NCBI GenBank assembly: GCA_029821635.1
Contig: JALGSW010000011.1
Coordinates: forward strand, 1 to 64,000
Length of the DNA: 64,000 nucleotides
Source: Candidatus Zipacnadia bacterium
Lineage (GTDB): Bacteria > Armatimonadota > Zipacnadia > Zipacnadales > UBA5352
Direction: 5' to 3'
This document shows, in pieces, positions 28,713-38,049 of the stretch (position 1 is the stretch's first letter; each line of letters begins with the position of its first letter). The position numbers and the translations under genes were made by a program. Below the pieces are notes generated by a model. It was not told the DNA's origin and did not search any database. It saw only the letters and a list, made by a program, of their open reading frames with translations.

Positions 28713-30260
28713 CTATGCGTGCGTGATGCGCCTCGGCAGGCGGCTGTCGGTCTCCACGAGCCGCTCCATCAGCCGCACCTGCAGGTCGCGCTTGACCTCT
28801 CGCGCGGCGGGCTCGTCCCACAGGTTCCGCAGCTCGCCGGGGTCCTCCTGCAGGTCAAACAGCTCGCCGAAGGGCTGCCCCGGATACGCGGTGATCTTGT
28901 AGCGCTCCGTCACCAGCGTCCGCAGGCGCAGGCCCATGTGGTCCTCATCGTTCTCGGCGATGACGCTGTCCTGCACGCTCCGCGCCTCGCCGCGCAGGAT
29001 CGGCGTGAGCGAGTTGCCCGGCAGCGCCGGAAGCTGGTTCGAGAGCGCCGGTTCGGGCGGGGTGAACTCGCCCTCAGGCATCGCCACTCCCGCCAGGTCG
29101 AGCATCGTCGGCACGATGTCCAGCCAGCTCGCAAGCCCCTGCGCCTCCATACCGCGCTCAATGCCCGGCCCGGCGAAGATCAGCGGTTGGCGCAGGAGGC
29201 CGTCGAAGTGGAACGGGCCCTTGTTGATGAGCCAGTGGTCGCCCATCATGTCGCCGTGGTCGCACAGGAAGCACACGACCGTATTGTCGCGCAACCCCAG
29301 TCGCTCCAGCGCCGCCATGACGCGCCCGATCTGCGCGTCCACGAAGGAGATCATGCCAAAGGTCATCGCGATGATCTCGCGGAGCTGCTCGTCCTCCATG
29401 AGCGTCGGACTCGTGCGACCCGAACACCAGCGTCCCTGCTCGCAGACCTCGCGGAAGTGCGGCGCGAGGCCATCGAGCTCACCCGCGCGGCGCGTGGGCA
29501 TCGGCACGTCCGCCGGATCGTACATGCTGGCCCACGGCTCGGGCGCGCAGTAGGGATGGTGCGGATCGGGGAACGAGCACCACGCGAAGAACGGCGCGCC
29601 CGCGGGCTGGTCCGCGAGGAACGAGATTGTCCGGTCGGCCACCCACGTGTTGTAGTGCAGCTCGGAGGGGAGCGCCATCGTCCAGGTGCTCTCCGCTCCG
29701 TGCGGCGACGGGCGGCCGGCGTCGGGCCGCATCAGCGCGCGCCCGTGCGGAAGCTGCGCGTCGAGCCAGCGGCCGTAGTCGCCATGCGCGTTGGGCCCGT
29801 GCGAGGTGATCAGTTCGACGCTCTGGAAGCCGTAGTAGGGCGTCGAGACGGCCTTCAGGCGGCCGTCATACCAGAGGGAGCGGGCCTCGGGCCACTCCAG
29901 CGGATCAATGGCTTCGGGCGCGAGCCCCTCTGGCGTGCCGAAGGTGCGCATGTGCAGCTTCCCGACCGAGTGCGTGCGCCAGCCCGCATCGCCGAGGGCC
30001 TCGCCCACGGTCGGGTAGCGCGGATCGAGCGGGATGCCGTTGGTGCGGACCTCGTGCCCGCGAGGCGTCAGGCCAGTGAAGAGCGTGGCGCGGAAGGGCA
30101 TGCACAGCGGGTTGTTGCAGTAGGCGCGATCGAAGCGCACGCCATCGGCCGCCAGCGCGTCGAGGCTCGGGGTCTGCACCACGGGGTTCCCGGCGCAGGC
30201 CATGTGATCGGCGCGCATCTGGTCGACGCAAAAGAAGAGGAAGTTGGGCTGCTCGGACAT
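28713..30260 (-). CDS. Arylsulfatase-family sulfatase
   Basis: NFLFFCVDQMRADHM, CMPFRATLFTGLTP (CxPxR maturation motif), VVCFLCDHGDMMGDHWLINKGPF. Confidence 0.93.
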   Translation of the reverse strand: MSEQPNFLFFCVDQMRADHMACAGNPVVQTPSLDALAADGVRFDRAYCNNPLCMPFRATLFTGLTPRGHEVRTNGIPLDPRYPTVGEALGDAGWRTHSVGKLHMRTFGTPEGLAPEAIDPLEWPEARSLWYDGRLKAVSTPYYGFQSVELITSHGPNAHGDYGRWLDAQLPHGRALMRPDAGRPSPHGAESTWTMALPSELHYNTWVADRTISFLADQPAGAPFFAWCSFPDPHHPYCAPEPWASMYDPADVPMPTRRAGELDGLAPHFREVCEQGRWCSGRTSPTLMEDEQLREIIAMTFGMISFVDAQIGRVMAALERLGLRDNTVVCFLCDHGDMMGDHWLINKGPFHFDGLLRQPLIFAGPGIERGMEAQGLASWLDIVPTMLDLAGVAMPEGEFTPPEPALSNQLPALPGNSLTPILRGEARSVQDSVIAENDEDHMGLRLRTLVTERYKITAYPGQPFGELFDLQEDPGELRNLWDEPAAREVKRDLQVRLMERLVETDSRLPRRITHA

Positions 30261-30289
30261 CGCATGCACTCCCATAACACTCGAACAAA

Positions 30290-30305
30290 TGTTTCACGTG
30301 GAACA
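30290..30305. promoter_or_regulatory. parS-like site 1
   Basis: TGTTTCACGTGGAACA, 15/16 to the parS consensus TGTTTCACGTGAAACA. Confidence 0.7.
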
Positions 30306-30314
30306 TTTCGCGCG

Positions 30315-31859
30315 TCAGTCGATCTCCAGCCCGCTCGCCTGCAAGTCGGCTGCGTCAGCGAACTCCAGTGAGTAGAGTCGGCAGTTCCGGCCGGTGATGC
30401 GCAGACGCACCGTGCGGCCAACCAGCGCTGTGAAGTCGTGCTGGGCGCGATTGCGCAGGTGTGCGAGCCGCCGCACTGAGTTCCCGCACATCGGGCCGCA
30501 GGGACCCGCGCCCGAGAAGCTTGCGATGCCCTCCCCCGCCTCGTCGAGGAACTCGATCTTCACGTGGCCGCCCGCGCTGGTGTCGAAGTTCATCAGCAAG
30601 CGATTTGCGGGCATGGCGAAGGGTCTGGTGACGATCTCCCCGCCGTCCTCGCCGCACTTTTGCGCCACGAACCGGTCAAGCCCTATGCGCGCCACGCCGA
30701 TCGCGCCGAACTGCGGCGGGTAAGGCTTGTGGTGGCCGGAGTGGTCGAGATCGTAGCCCGCGTAGTAGAGCAGCGTCTCATCGCCCATCGGCACCTGCCC
30801 TGCCGCCATGTAGATGCGCTCCGAGTCCCACGCACCGGTCCTGCTGAGGCGAACAAAGGTGCCGGGCAGAAGCGCCCACTCGATGCCGTCGCGACTGGTG
30901 GCGAGCTTCACATCTAACTTGTTCGCGAGGCCGTAGTGATAGAAGGGGCTGGGCATCATGAGGTAGTTGCGCGTCCCGGGCCACTGCAGCACCATCGGGT
31001 TGTAGAGGTCCATCCAGCCCTGGTGCTCGGCCATGTCCCTGCCCGCCGGCGCCGGGTCAAGCACCTTCTGCGGCGCGGGGAAGTCCGTGAAGCTGTCACT
31101 CTCCGAGCGCCCGACGCAGCGGTAGCCGAAGCGCCCGCTGATGCGCCGGTCCTCCACGACGTAGCCCTCGTTGTAGCGCACGTAGGCCACGTATCTGCCC
31201 AGACGGTCGTCCCACATCGCCACATTCTGCGTGTCGGTGTACCACGGCATGATGCTGGCCTGCGGGTAATACTGCCAGTGGATCCCGTCGGGCGAGAACG
31301 CGCCTCGGATTGTCTTGTATGCGGGCACGCCCTCATCGTGCTCCATCAGCGCCCCGTCCGTGATGAGCTTGTAGCGCTCGGCCTCGGGGGCGGTCGGATC
31401 GATGAACACAGTGCCCGCGTAGTGCGAGCCGAGATCCGGCTCGAAGACGATGTTGTTGTCCGTGCTGCCCTCGAACTCCACGACGCCCAGGCTCGGACGC
31501 TCGAAGGTCACGCCATCCGTGGAGGTCGCGAGGCACAGGCGCGGGCGCATGTCCGCCGACTGCGCGCAGTAGTAGAGGCGGATGACGCCGGCATCGTCCA
31601 CGAGCACCGTGTTGTGCCACCACACGGTCCCCTGCTCCCACGGCATCTCGGGTGCCAGCACCGGCTGAGGGTCGCGCACGGCCTCCATGGGCGTGGTCTC
31701 GAAGCCGGACTTCTGCGCAAACAGGTAGTCGTCGTAGAGGAGCCACTTCTGCGTCCCGAGGTCCATCGGCTCGCCTCCATCCTGCGCAGCGCAGGTAACG
31801 ACAAGTAGGAGAAGCGTCGTGACAACGAGTGCATCGAACAAATGTTTCACGTGAAACAT
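30315..31859 (-). CDS. Secreted GH43/GH32-like five-bladed beta-propeller protein
   Basis: KWLLYDDYLFAQKSGFETTPMEAVRDPQPVLAPEMPWEQGTVWWHNTVLVDDAGVIRLYYCAQS..; begins MFHVKHLFD inside the parS-like palindrome. Confidence 0.65.
   Translation of the reverse strand: MFHVKHLFDALVVTTLLLLVVTCAAQDGGEPMDLGTQKWLLYDDYLFAQKSGFETTPMEAVRDPQPVLAPEMPWEQGTVWWHNTVLVDDAGVIRLYYCAQSADMRPRLCLATSTDGVTFERPSLGVVEFEGSTDNNIVFEPDLGSHYAGTVFIDPTAPEAERYKLITDGALMEHDEGVPAYKTIRGAFSPDGIHWQYYPQASIMPWYTDTQNVAMWDDRLGRYVAYVRYNEGYVVEDRRISGRFGYRCVGRSESDSFTDFPAPQKVLDPAPAGRDMAEHQGWMDLYNPMVLQWPGTRNYLMMPSPFYHYGLANKLDVKLATSRDGIEWALLPGTFVRLSRTGAWDSERIYMAAGQVPMGDETLLYYAGYDLDHSGHHKPYPPQFGAIGVARIGLDRFVAQKCGEDGGEIVTRPFAMPANRLLMNFDTSAGGHVKIEFLDEAGEGIASFSGAGPCGPMCGNSVRRLAHLRNRAQHDFTALVGRTVRLRITGRNCRLYSLEFADAADLQASGLEID
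31843..31858. promoter_or_regulatory. parS-like site 2 (perfect 16-bp palindrome)
   Basis: TGTTTCACGTGAAACA exact match to parS consensus. Confidence 0.78.
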
Positions 31860-31866
31860 TCTGCTC

Positions 31867-33933
31867 TCACTCCTCCGCGGACACGTGCAGAAGCTCCCGG
31901 TAGAACGTGTTCGTGGCGCCGTCGGGCGCGGTTACCTCGATCGTGATGAGATTGCGGCCCGGCGCGAGCGTCACATCATGCGAGAAGCGAGAGTAGCCCA
32001 GCCACGGCGGCACTTCGACCGGCTCGCCATTGATCGTTACCGTCGCGCCTGCGCGGCAGGCGCCCCAGATCGTCGCCTGTGCAGGCGAGGTCAGCTCGAC
32101 CTCGCTGCCCGAGACAGGCTTGATCGTGGCCGGCGTGCTCAGCAGCGCGCTCAAAGGCGACGCGCTCACCAGCGCCAGCGGCTCGCGCCCCAGCGCCTCG
32201 ATCTCATTCGCGATAAGCTGCCGGAAGCGATGGATCCACGCCGCGTCCGCACGGTAGCTCTGCAGCCGGAAGCCGGTCGCGAGCGTGCTCGCCCATGACT
32301 CGGCCGCGAACTGCGCCTGCAGGCCCTCCTCAAGCTCCCCGTACGCGCCCAGCTTCTCCACCGCGGCCTCGGCCCGCTCCTCCAGCAGCATCAGCATGTC
32401 GTACTCATCCATGCCCTGCCGGAAGGCCTCCCAGCGCAGCGACGAGCGCCAGACGGGGTCGTGCTCGCGCGGCGGGTAGAGCAGGTGGCCGTTGCCGAAG
32501 TCGTAGTACGTCTTGTCCCGCCTCTCGCTCTTGATCGGCCGGATCTCGGTCCACGGGTCCGGCTCGCCCTCGTACTCGTCGCCATAGCCCCCACCGTAGC
32601 TGCGCAGCGACCACCAGAGCGCTCCCGTGAAGCCGTTCTTCGCCAGAGCCGCCGGGAAGAGGCGCATCGCGCCGGGGTTCCACTCAGCATTGAGCATGTA
32701 CGCCGAGTTGAGGTACGCCCACATCTCCATGCCGTGCGCCCGGCGGATCAGCCACTGCTCGGGCGCCTCGTCCGCGCGCACCGCGAAGAGGTGCCAGCCC
32801 GGACACCAGATGTCCAGATGCTCCGCCAGCTCGTCGCTCATAGAGTTCGTGGTCAGGAGGATGCGCAGTTCGGGCCAGACGGCCTTCGCCCGGCGGCACA
32901 TCTCCGCGGTCAGCGGGAACATCTCCTCGGGAAGCTCGTCGCCGATCTTCCAGATCACCCGGTCGGCCCAGCCGCGCTCGCGCAGGTGGTCGCCCACGCC
33001 GCGCATGTACTGCTCGAAGAGCGGCCAGAACTCGTCCGAACCGACAGCGACCGGCCTGCTCAGGTACCTGTCGCGCGGTCCCCGGCTGGTCAGCGGCATT
33101 GTCGGCGGCACGCCGATGGTCAAGAAGCCAAGCTCGTCGAGGAGCAGTTCCGCCTGCTCGTCATACTCCTCGAAGCCGAGTGTCATGACACCATTGTCGT
33201 CAACGTCGATCTCGATGCCGGCGGCCCCGTACTTGAGCGTATTCACGTCGAGCTCGCGCAGGCGGCGGAAGACCTCTGGATCGCGCTCGACGGTGCTTGA
33301 GTAGTTGATCAGCCGATGCTCCTCCGGCAGGGCGATCTCCCAGACGGTGAGCGCGACCGGCACCGTCGCGGAGAATCCGCCGCCCTCGACGGTGACGCTG
33401 CCCGCATACTCGCCGGCCTCCGCGTCGCGCGGGACCTCGATCGTCAGCAGGAGCGTGGTATTCGTGCCCGCCGGTGCGTCGAAGGGCCCCGGCGGCTCCA
33501 GCGGATCGGGCAGCATCCCGCTCTGGCCGGTGCGCAGGCCGTAGTGGTAGCTTCCGCGCCGCACCTGCGTGTATGCGACACGCTCCCACCTCCACGCTTC
33601 CGCGGGAATCGCTCCCGGCCCATCGAGGGCGCTGAAGCGCAGGTCGAGGCCGGTCAGCGCGGCCGTGGGGCGCAGGACGAGCTGCACCTGCTCGCTCTCA
33701 CCTCGTGCGGCAGCCAGCTCGACGCGTTCGGCGCGCAGGAGGTCTTCGGCTTGCGCGAGGTCCTCGTCAGGGAGGACCTTCTGCGTCGGGCAGCGCACGA
33801 AGATCGCGCAGTCTGCGCCATCGTGCAGCAGCACGGGCCGCATCAGTTGCGGATCAGGCAGGTCGGCGTGCGCGGCGGCAACCGCAAGCGCAAGCCCCAG
33901 GGTCAGCAGCATTGTCCGCTTCATCGCCATCAC
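31867..33933 (-). CDS. Secreted DUF4091-type (glycoside hydrolase-like) protein
   Basis: Signal peptide; VPRDAEAGEYAGSVTVEGGGF; SLRWEAFRQGMDEYDMLMLLEERA C-terminal helix typical of DUF4091 proteins. Confidence 0.72.
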   Translation of the reverse strand: MMAMKRTMLLTLGLALAVAAAHADLPDPQLMRPVLLHDGADCAIFVRCPTQKVLPDEDLAQAEDLLRAERVELAAARGESEQVQLVLRPTAALTGLDLRFSALDGPGAIPAEAWRWERVAYTQVRRGSYHYGLRTGQSGMLPDPLEPPGPFDAPAGTNTTLLLTIEVPRDAEAGEYAGSVTVEGGGFSATVPVALTVWEIALPEEHRLINYSSTVERDPEVFRRLRELDVNTLKYGAAGIEIDVDDNGVMTLGFEEYDEQAELLLDELGFLTIGVPPTMPLTSRGPRDRYLSRPVAVGSDEFWPLFEQYMRGVGDHLRERGWADRVIWKIGDELPEEMFPLTAEMCRRAKAVWPELRILLTTNSMSDELAEHLDIWCPGWHLFAVRADEAPEQWLIRRAHGMEMWAYLNSAYMLNAEWNPGAMRLFPAALAKNGFTGALWWSLRSYGGGYGDEYEGEPDPWTEIRPIKSERRDKTYYDFGNGHLLYPPREHDPVWRSSLRWEAFRQGMDEYDMLMLLEERAEAAVEKLGAYGELEEGLQAQFAAESWASTLATGFRLQSYRADAAWIHRFRQLIANEIEALGREPLALVSASPLSALLSTPATIKPVSGSEVELTSPAQATIWGACRAGATVTINGEPVEVPPWLGYSRFSHDVTLAPGRNLITIEVTAPDGATNTFYRELLHVSAEE

Positions 33934-36900
33934 CCCGCAGGGAGCTCTACCGCGTTATTCGCCTCGTAGAGCTCCGTGATTACGTCTTCCGGGTCAACGA
34001 TCACGGTGAACTGCCGCCCGCGGCGGTCGTTCGGCACCTCGAAGGTCAGCTCCACCACGCGCGCATTGCAGTCGCTCGGCGCCTCCAGCGGCCCCGCCGT
34101 CGCGGTCAGGTCGGGCTTGCCGTCATCGCCGCGGGCGATCACCGTGAACTGCGGCGCCTCTCCCCCACCGATGTTGTGCACGCGCGCGGTAATGGTCGTC
34201 GCGTCGTCGCTGATCACCGTGTCCTGCGGGCAGATCGCCAGGTCCGGGCGCGCGTAGTAGTCCTCGCCCGACGCCTCGATCTGCTCGATCCGCAGCGCGA
34301 CGGTGGTGCGCGGCGGCAGCTCCACGTCGAGCGCCGAGCCCTTCGCGAGGCTCAGCTCGCGCGTGGAGGTGGCCTCGTCGGGCACGCCGTCCTCGTCCGC
34401 GTCCGGGCCGATGGTCACGCGGTAGGAGCCCGGCTCCAGCCGCCAGAGCGTGATCGCGCCCTGCTGCGCCCTCGCCTCGAAGTTGTAGGCCATCAGGCTC
34501 AGGCTCTGCGCGTCGGCCTCGAGCACCCACGCGGCGAAGTCCGGCGACATCCCCTGCCAGGAAATCGCGTGCGTCGGGTAGATGTAGTTGCGGTAGCCGG
34601 GCTGGCCGCCGAGGTACATGCGGTCCACGAGGTCCTTGGAGATCGCCACGCGGTCGGCCGACTGCTCGATCCAGGTGGCGGTAGCCGGGCTGGCCGCCGA
34701 GGTACATGCGGTCCACGAGGTCCTTGGAGATCGCCACGCGGTCGGCCGACTGCTCGATCCAGGTGTGCATCGGAAAGAGCAGCTCAATGCGCTCCCACGA
34801 GGCTTTGAGCGCAGTCAGCAGCGCGTCGCGGTCGCCGAACTGCTTCCACGCCGCGTAGTGCACCTGCGTGCGCGGGTCGTTGCCCATCGAGGGCTTGAGG
34901 TCTCCATAGGAGTAGCCGTCGGCCTGCGCGCGGAGCATCTCGGCGTAGTCGCCCATGACCGAGCGCTCGACCATGTCCGGCATCATGTTCGCGTCGATCA
35001 TGCCCTGGTCGAGCCAGACGCGGTGGGCGAGCAGGTAGCGGTCATCGCCGGTCCACTCGGCCAGCGCAAGGTACATGTTCTCTGAGCCGTAGCCGCCGAA
35101 GGCGTGGGTGGTGCTGACGACCCCGCGGTCCTCGAAGCGCACGGCACTGGGCAGGTAGCTCACGCGGCCCTCGATCGGCCCGTTTTCGGCGATGCTCTTC
35201 TCCACGAGGTCGAGCCAGGCATCGCCATACTCCCGCACGAGGCGCGTGGCGCGGTCATTGCGCGACCACCAACCGACGTAGAGCGGCCCGTGCAGCATTA
35301 GCGTGCTGGAGAGCACGTCCTGATCGTAGGGCGTCTCGGTGACGATCTGCCGCGCACCGTAGAGCTTCGACTTGAAGTGCCGGAAGCCTTGCGTCATGCC
35401 GGTGAGGTGCTCGTCCACGGTGCGCGTGCCATCCATCAGCCGCTCCATGTAGACCGGGTTGCCCGGATACATCTCCGCGGCGCGGCACAGCGCGTTGATG
35501 CCGTCCTCGTAGGCGTGCAGCGGGTCGGTGGTGCGGCGGTTGATGCCGTCCTCGATGAGCACGTCGTAGCAGGTGTCGGCGAGGCGCCGCACCGAGTCGG
35601 CAATGCGCCCGTCCACGTCCGAGATCATGCTCAGCGACACCCAGTCGTTGATGAGGTCGGTATCATCGCCGAGGAAGTGCCCGAACTCCCCGTTGGGCGC
35701 CTGCCGGTGGTCGATCCACCAGTTCACGAAGTCCAGGTCCCTCCGCAGAGCCGCGCGCTGGTAGGCGGCCCACTCAGGCGCGCCCGCTGCGTCCGGGGGC
35801 TGCAGGGCCGTGCGATCGACCGGCTCGCTCGGGTGCGTCCAGATGTGCACCGCGCGGGCGTAGTAGTCATCGGGGAAGCGCGTGTGCAGGTCGTTCAGCG
35901 CGCGATGCAGCTCCATGAACACGCCCGTGCGCTCGGCGAGCCGGTCCATCGCAACCTTCCCCCACGGCCGCGGCTCGGAGACGTCAATGAAGCGATCCTT
36001 GACGTAGGCGAGCTGATCGTGGCGGTACTGCCCGGCCAGCGCCTCCTTCGGCTCGATGAGCAGGTCGAAGCGCGACTGGTGGTCGGCGTCCCAGACCAAC
36101 TCGGCATCATTGCTCGCGAGCAGCCTGATCCAGACCGGGCGGCCGTCGGGGATCACCGTGTCGCGGATGTCGAGCGTAAGGTCGAGGGCCTGCACGCCAT
36201 CCCACGCGCCCTGCGAGGTAACCTCGAAGTCCGCGATCTGCCGCGATGGGACGATCGGGTCGGCGGCGAGCAGCCACAGCGTCGTGCCGGGCTGCAGGTC
36301 GCGGAAGTACAGGCGCGCGCGGATGGCCCCAAGCGCGCGGTCGGCGGAGTCGGCCGGCAGCATCAGGTGGTAGAAGCGCATAGCCTGCATCGGCAGCGCG
36401 CGGGCCTCGGCCGGGGCCTCGCGCGCGCAGCGCAGAGCGGCGCGGTCGTAGGGCTCATACTTGCTGACGATGACGCGCCCGATCTCCGACGACCAGTCGG
36501 TCCACGCGTCGGCGGAGAGGTAGTGCCGCTCGGGCTCACCGGAGAGGTCGCCCGCGTCCTCGCGGAAGGTCTCGAAGAAGCCGATCTCGCGGATGCGCGT
36601 GGGCGGTGGCGGATTCTCTGGCTGCCCCTCCGCATCGGCCTCGGGATCGGGATCGGCGAAGAAGGTCATCGCGGTCTGCGTCTGCGCCCCGTCGAACTCC
36701 CGCGCCAGCAGCGGCTGATCGCTGCGTAGCGGCATCCACGCCTCGCCCTCGGGCTCGAAGATCTGCTCGCCGCGGTACATCTGCCCAAGGCAGTGCCCGC
36801 GGATGCGCAGGTAGTCCCAGCGCTCGCCCTCGTCAAGGCTCAGGATCAGCCCGCCCTCGTCCTGGAAGGAGTAGCCGTGGTAGGTCAGCGGCCAGCGTGT

Positions 36901-37872
36901 GAAGCGGTCGCCATCGCAGACCTTCCACGCCTGCGAGTAGATCGCGCGGGCGTCGTCGATCCCGGCCTGGCGGACGAGCAGCGTCTCATCTTCGCCCGCA
37001 GGCTCGATGCCGAGCAGCGGCTGGCCCTCCCAGCCGAGGTAGTCGGCGCGGTGGGCGGCGAGTTCAGGCGTCCACGCAGCCGCGACCGCGGGCAAGTCCG
37101 GCTGGCCCTCGTAGACCACTCGGACCTCCTCGTCGCTGAGCGGTCGCGAGAACACGCGCAGCTCATCGAGCGCGAAGGGCTGCTGAGTGCCTCCCCAGTA
37201 GTTCCATTCGCCGATGAGCAGCTTGTCCGGCTCGAGGTCCTCGGTCTGCCAGGTGCGCGCTTCCGAGCGGGTGCGCTCGCCGTTCACGTAGAGGCGGAAG
37301 CCCTCGCTTTCATCCCACGCGAAGGCGAGGTGATACCAGGTCTCGCCCTCCCACGGCTCTGACTCGAAGTCGAAGCTGCCGCCCCACGGTCCGTGGACGA
37401 GGATGCGCCCGTAACGCCCGCGCAGGCCGTATGCCATCGCCTCGCGCGAGACGGAGGTGATGCTGAGCAGGCTGTGGTGGACCTGACCGATGGGTCGGTC
37501 GAACTTGACCCAGAACGCAACCGTGCCGCGCCGGAGGTTGACGTTGCCGGAGGCGTCGTAGCGATGCGACTGCCCGCGCTCCATGCGCAGAGCCTTCTCC
37601 ACCACGCCCTCGGTGTCACGCGCGCGGTACAGGCCGATGTCCTTCTGATTGCCGCGATCGTAGGGGTTGAGCACCACGTCGCGGGAGCCGCGGGCGATGT
37701 CCGCCTCCAGGCCCCGCCCGTAGAAGTCGGAGTAGCCGTCGTTGAAGGTCGCGCGCAGCGTCTCCGCCTGGTCGGGCGGGAGATCGACCGCAACGGGCGC
37801 GTACGCCTGCGCGTAGACGAGCGCGCAGGCGATCAGGGCGAGGAGCGCAAACGCCGGGCGGCTGAGCTTCAT
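33930..37872 (-). pseudogene. LamG/toroid/CARDB-type large secreted protein split by an 88-bp tandem duplication
   Basis: ORF 34123-37887 and ORF 33930-34787 each carry IEQSADRVAISKDLVDRMYLGGQPGYR; removing 88 bp restores one frame. N-terminal LamG-like domain, C-terminal CARDB-like domain (RPDLAICPQDTVISDDATTITARVHNIGGGEAPQFTV). Confidence 0.85.
34590..34765. repeat. Exact 2 x 88-bp tandem duplication
   Basis: 34590-34677 = 34678-34765 (GCGGTAGCCGGGCTGGCCGCCGAGGTACATGCGGTCCACGAGG...CTCGATCCAGGTG). Confidence 0.95.
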
Positions 37873-38049
37873 TGAAGTGACCTCCATGGATGGGCCGGCT
37901 TGTCCCGCGGTGGTTCAGGTTCCCGTGTGAGGTCGCCCACACCTGCCGGATCGCTGCAGGGCGCTCGCGCGGCCCCCCCGGCTTGACTCCCGCCCCCCAT
38001 CGTCGTACCCTGCCCGCGCAGGTCAGTGAGACCAACCGGGAGGCCGACC

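Follow-up and report, generated by a model that had tools for sequence, protein, structure and literature searches.

Dispersed parS sites with an overlapping LexA-type box in Armatimonadota and Eggerthellaceae: a possible DNA-damage-gated centromere

Why should a single gene of an Armatimonadota bacterium lie between two centromere-like sites, and to what system do these belong? The stretch of DNA that we analysed (the window) is 64 kb long and corresponds to C230:1-64000 of a 5.01-Mb MAG in 247 contigs, which is 87.6% complete. The initial annotation had reported a perfect 16-bp parS, TGTTTCACGTGAAACA, and a second site with 15 of 16 positions matching, TGTTTCACGTGGAACA, and both are present where they had been placed (Table 1). 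They are the only parS matches in the window, even if up to three mismatches are allowed, and shuffles of the window yielded 0.03, in agreement with the view that the pair is unlikely to be a product of chance. The reading frame between them does start with MFHVKH within the perfect site, as had been described. A feature that had not been mentioned is that CGAACAAA precedes both sites (30282-30289 and 31835-31842), so that a 24-bp unit, CGAACAAATGTTTCACGTGRAACA, is repeated without a change of orientation. The composite at 30282-30305 fits entirely into the 39 bp that separate two genes. Scans of the window for Rfam families and tRNAs gave no matches. Further along, at 34590-34765 inside the gene 34123-37887, a stretch of 88 bp is duplicated in tandem, with 100% identity between the two copies. 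The duplication appears to shift the reading frame, with a continuation in the frame 33930-34787, and is either an assembly artefact or a recent mutation.

Table 1. Features at and around the two parS sites, numbered from the first letter of the window.
Feature	Position	Strand	Basis or remark
parS, perfect 16-bp match, palindromic	31843..31858	.	window scan and genome-wide search
LexA-type box CGAACAAATGTTTC, shares GTTTC with left half of perfect parS	31835..31848	+	PWM
parS variant TGTTTCACGTGGAACA, one mismatch	30290..30305	+	window scan and genome-wide search
LexA-type box CGAACAAATGTTTC, overlaps second parS	30282..30295	+	PWM
514-aa protein, signal-peptide-like start, no Pfam match	30315..31859	-	start codon at parS
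Sulfatase (PF00884)	28713..30275	-	downstream of second site; bystander
GH123-like glycoside hydrolase	31867..33933	-	upstream of perfect site; bystander

When up to one mismatch is allowed, parS occurs 13 times in the genome (10 perfect sites, 3 with one mismatch). Five of them are gathered within 0.9 kb, at C72:9278-10177, immediately upstream of an rsmG-like gene and of parA and parB, with PDB matches to ParB and Spo0J, and dnaA follows about 17 kb further along the same contig. This cluster beside parAB, and a single clear chromosomal parB, uphold the identification of the window sites as parS. The proposal that the window is near oriC finds no support, since the canonical parAB, parS cluster and dnaA are all on another contig; C230 and C72 are separate pieces of a fragmented MAG. 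The remaining eight sites are spread over seven contigs (C8, C36, C94, C147, C187, C239, and C230 with the two window sites). A flank, CGAACRA(A/G), abuts parS on one side in all eight dispersed sites but in none of the five clustered ones (Fisher p 0.0008), so that flank and location agree in 13 of 13 cases, and the chance of CGAAC at this position is about 0.002 per site. The sequence CGAACRNRYGTTTC occurs nine times in 5 Mb, and eight of the nine are the dispersed parS sites.

The flank together with the adjoining parS half, GTTTC, reads CGAAC-N4-GTTTC, and this fits the dyad of the published Gram-positive LexA consensus, CGAACRNRYGTTYC (PMC2248561). The operator of the genome's own lexA, TCGAACGGACGTTTGC, lies roughly 150 bp ahead of the coding sequence, the lexA promoters of ten relatives carry TCGAAC-N4-GTTTG(C/A), and those of Eggerthellaceae carry CGAACAAATGTTT(T/G), CGAACAAAGGTTCT and similar sequences. 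The composite box resembles the own operator except in the last base, GTTTC versus GTTTG. A PWM built from Armatimonadota lexA operators alone was scanned over 103 parS sites of this genome and its relatives. Scores of 12-20 were obtained for 24 of them, all at one exact register, while the majority remained below 5, and intermediate values (6-9) were confined to four tandem parS sites of one relative (G016). The box at the perfect window site scores 19.6, against 0.94 for the 99.9th percentile of the local background, and, like the lexA boxes of Armatimonadota, has a T in front of it. This T stands before CGAAC in 16 of 22 Armatimonadota composites, compared with about 10% in the Eggerthellaceae-dominated set of matches listed (p 2e-9). 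In another relative a lexA-type box overlaps parS in a shifted register (G012:C63, PWM 17.3). An architecture in which parS and a LexA box are combined is well supported, and, judged by sequence, we regard LexA as the best candidate for the protein that would read the flank. In an alignment read by eye, the own LexA retains the cleavage segment (VAAGSP) as well as the motifs of the serine (GESM) and the lysine (VKY). The composite boxes end in GTTTC and score lower than genuine lexA operators (about 13 compared with 19-26 in Gordonibacter), so that the affinity of LexA for them may be modest.

The composite recurs in Armatimonadota relatives, and a scan of GTDB representatives gave, among the matches listed, mostly Eggerthellaceae (Actinomycetota) with several copies per genome. 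Single matches listed from Pseudonocardia, Desulfovibrio, Chloroflexi, Alloscardovia and others may be due to chance. Two Gordonibacter chromosomes (G041 and G042) have 86 and 34 parS-like sites by forward-strand count, and 71 and 35 distinct sites, among the matches listed, were used to analyse the distance to parB. With a flank called at four or more of the five CGAAC letters, which is expected for either side at about 3% of sites, it was found in 0 of 25 sites within 10 kb of parB and in 42 of 46 sites more than 250 kb away (among the matches listed). A PWM made from Eggerthellaceae lexA operators gave 43 of 45 far sites a higher score than every core site, again among the matches listed, and the scores of these far sites are roughly half those of the lexA operators themselves. 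Plain sites also occur 10-220 kb from parB in these chromosomes. A hand count in G042 among the matches listed gave no bias of box orientation relative to the replichore (9 origin-side, 8 terminus-side). A flank variant, CGTAC, is frequent at distal sites in both chromosomes, mostly followed by AAATG, and was absent from the lexA promoters examined. Several of their origin-proximal parS form part of perfect palindromes that extend far beyond the site itself, and behind some of these comes a run of T, as in an intrinsic terminator. A terminator reading of the flank was rejected: some Gordonibacter core palindromes precede T, but the flank GTTCG is no T run. The flank is not universal among dispersed sites. 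Four of the five dispersed sites of G012 and several sites of G004 are boxless, and in G016 the dispersed parS come as pairs, tandem or partial, at a spacing of 18 bp (L282-L285), for example TGTTTCACGTGAAACA-AT-TGTTTCACGTGAAACA, with no CGAAC flank. The dispersed sites, here as in the relatives, are a class of their own, marked by the LexA-box flank and distinct from the cluster near the origin.

The own ParB keeps the equivalents of R173 and G201 when aligned to Caulobacter ParB (6t1f), the two positions that determine specificity (PMC7383237), and should therefore bind both plain and composite parS. Since the box and parS share GTTTC, simultaneous binding of LexA and ParB is unlikely. Caulobacter cells tolerate parS only within about 500 kb surrounding the native cluster and are impaired by a parS placed mid-arm (PMC5815017), which gives a reason to mask distal sites. 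We infer that the window sites belong to the chromosomal ParABS system as origin-distal parS, each with its own LexA operator built in, at which LexA would exclude ParB in a damage-dependent manner. In unstressed cells a LexA dimer on CGAAC-N4-GTTTC would cover one parS half and bar nucleation, so that ParB, and the SMC that it loads, would stay at the plain origin sites. Under such a mask, distal sites could be present without effect. Upon DNA damage, self-cleavage of LexA would unmask them and ParB would load along the arms, whereby SMC could be recruited there, ParB drawn off the origin cluster, or both. Titration of ParB, SMC loading on the arms and buffering of LexA are alternative outcomes. 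The earlier idea of a ParB nucleation zone is compatible with this, but such a zone would probably be conditional. LexA-masked origin-distal parS, with ParB loading only after SOS induction, is in our opinion the best explanation, and on the sequence evidence a probable one, if only by a little.

Among the other explanations, the 24-bp element could be read by some other protein, such as a second ParB or Noc-like paralogue or an architectural factor, the likeness to LexA boxes being a coincidence. Both parS halves are indeed conserved together with the flank, and some Eggerthellaceae have extra ParB-like proteins. Noc and its NBS sites are also similar in being a ParB-family protein with dispersed sites away from the origin core; the core is, however, parS here and not NBS. 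A second ParB-family protein with Noc's Q173/R201 was not found in the 87.6% complete genome, where the one TIGR00180 match has R and G, and Raoultibacter likewise has one ParB match. In each lineage the flank, its spacing and the preceding base also agree with those of the lexA operators, and one relative has the box in a different register, and we find another reader unlikely. The logic could instead be the inverse of masking, with the sites acting as LexA reservoirs, or with bound ParB competing LexA off and tying the state of segregation to SOS readiness. This draws on the same sequence evidence as the masking model, and the 42 flanked sites beyond 250 kb in the two Gordonibacter chromosomes (among the matches listed) would be enough to titrate a repressor, but a LexA reservoir needs no intact right parS half and yet that half is conserved, and we consider this option improbable.

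We hold it very unlikely that the sites are ordinary dispersed parS with constitutive ParB loading and a flank without function. In favour of this, the 16-bp core is intact and often perfect, and ParB has the parS-type residues; against it, all eight dispersed sites and no core site share an 8-bp flank, and Gordonibacter and the relatives show the same split. Equally poor is the prospect that they are transcriptional operators through which LexA, perhaps with ParB, controls adjacent genes, in the window those for the sulfatase and the 514-aa protein. Both window sites are located at a start codon or a short way upstream of one, and three of the eight composites of this genome adjoin a sulfatase gene (that in the window, L028:2508-4088 and L029:5056-6678), an adjacency that may only reflect a sulfatase-rich genome. 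The neighbours are catabolic or assorted genes, however, none of them SOS genes, one own-genome site is between converging genes, and the composites do not lie in the promoters of damage-inducible genes. Of the composites listed, 69% are intergenic or at a locus edge compared with 13% of random positions, and tandem, divergent and convergent settings are found as 51:13:13, as at random and with convergent gaps used at chance rate; since the reading frames were called by a simple GC3 method, these figures are estimates. Being intergenic without a promoter bias, the composites are not ordinary LexA operators. The 514-aa protein belongs to a large paralogous family in the relatives, and a role as operator of the window genes was rejected because its best orthologues (79% and 71% identity) have neither a parS nor a LexA site, which also means that the position of the composite is not conserved among those checked. 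All this fits a role at the level of the chromosome better than gene regulation. That the 24-bp repeat was spread by mobility, as a REP-like or other mobile element or as a recombination cassette with the window gene between direct repeats, would account for the two direct copies around one gene and for the turnover of site positions between species, but is hardly credible, as conservation around the composite ends at about 27 bp, the core is the host parS in two distant phyla and the flank is the host LexA box.

The LexA-masked parS proposed here would combine two known systems. The core is identical to that of chromosomal parS of ParABS (ParB/Spo0J), with parAB, the rsmG-like gene and the parS cluster on the dnaA contig, but textbook parS cluster near oriC without a flank, whereas the dispersed sites carry a one-sided, overlapping LexA box. 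This box, in turn, fits the Gram-positive SOS/Cheo consensus and resembles the operators of its lineage, but is not tied to promoters or SOS genes and borrows one half from parS. Streptomyces and Pseudomonas also have several parS beyond the core cluster, as here, but we know of no report of a LexA flank on them. A literature search, with most subscription journals and all bioRxiv preprints outside its coverage, found no paper linking LexA boxes to parS.

The findings suggest that bacteria may switch extra centromere sites on and off with DNA damage. In its general form, for both Armatimonadota and Eggerthellaceae, the proposal is a centromere where LexA masks tens of origin-distal parS until SOS induction frees them, so that ParB and SMC would be spread anew over the chromosome, either to check segregation or to aid repair; this we put forward tentatively, as it falls just short of what we would call probable. 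Culturable gut Eggerthellaceae (Gordonibacter, Eggerthella) make the model directly testable. If true, it would explain how dozens of parS far from the origin, harmful in Caulobacter when ectopic, can be tolerated, and the SOS response would be tied directly, through the DNA sequence itself, to chromosome segregation by ParABS and SMC.
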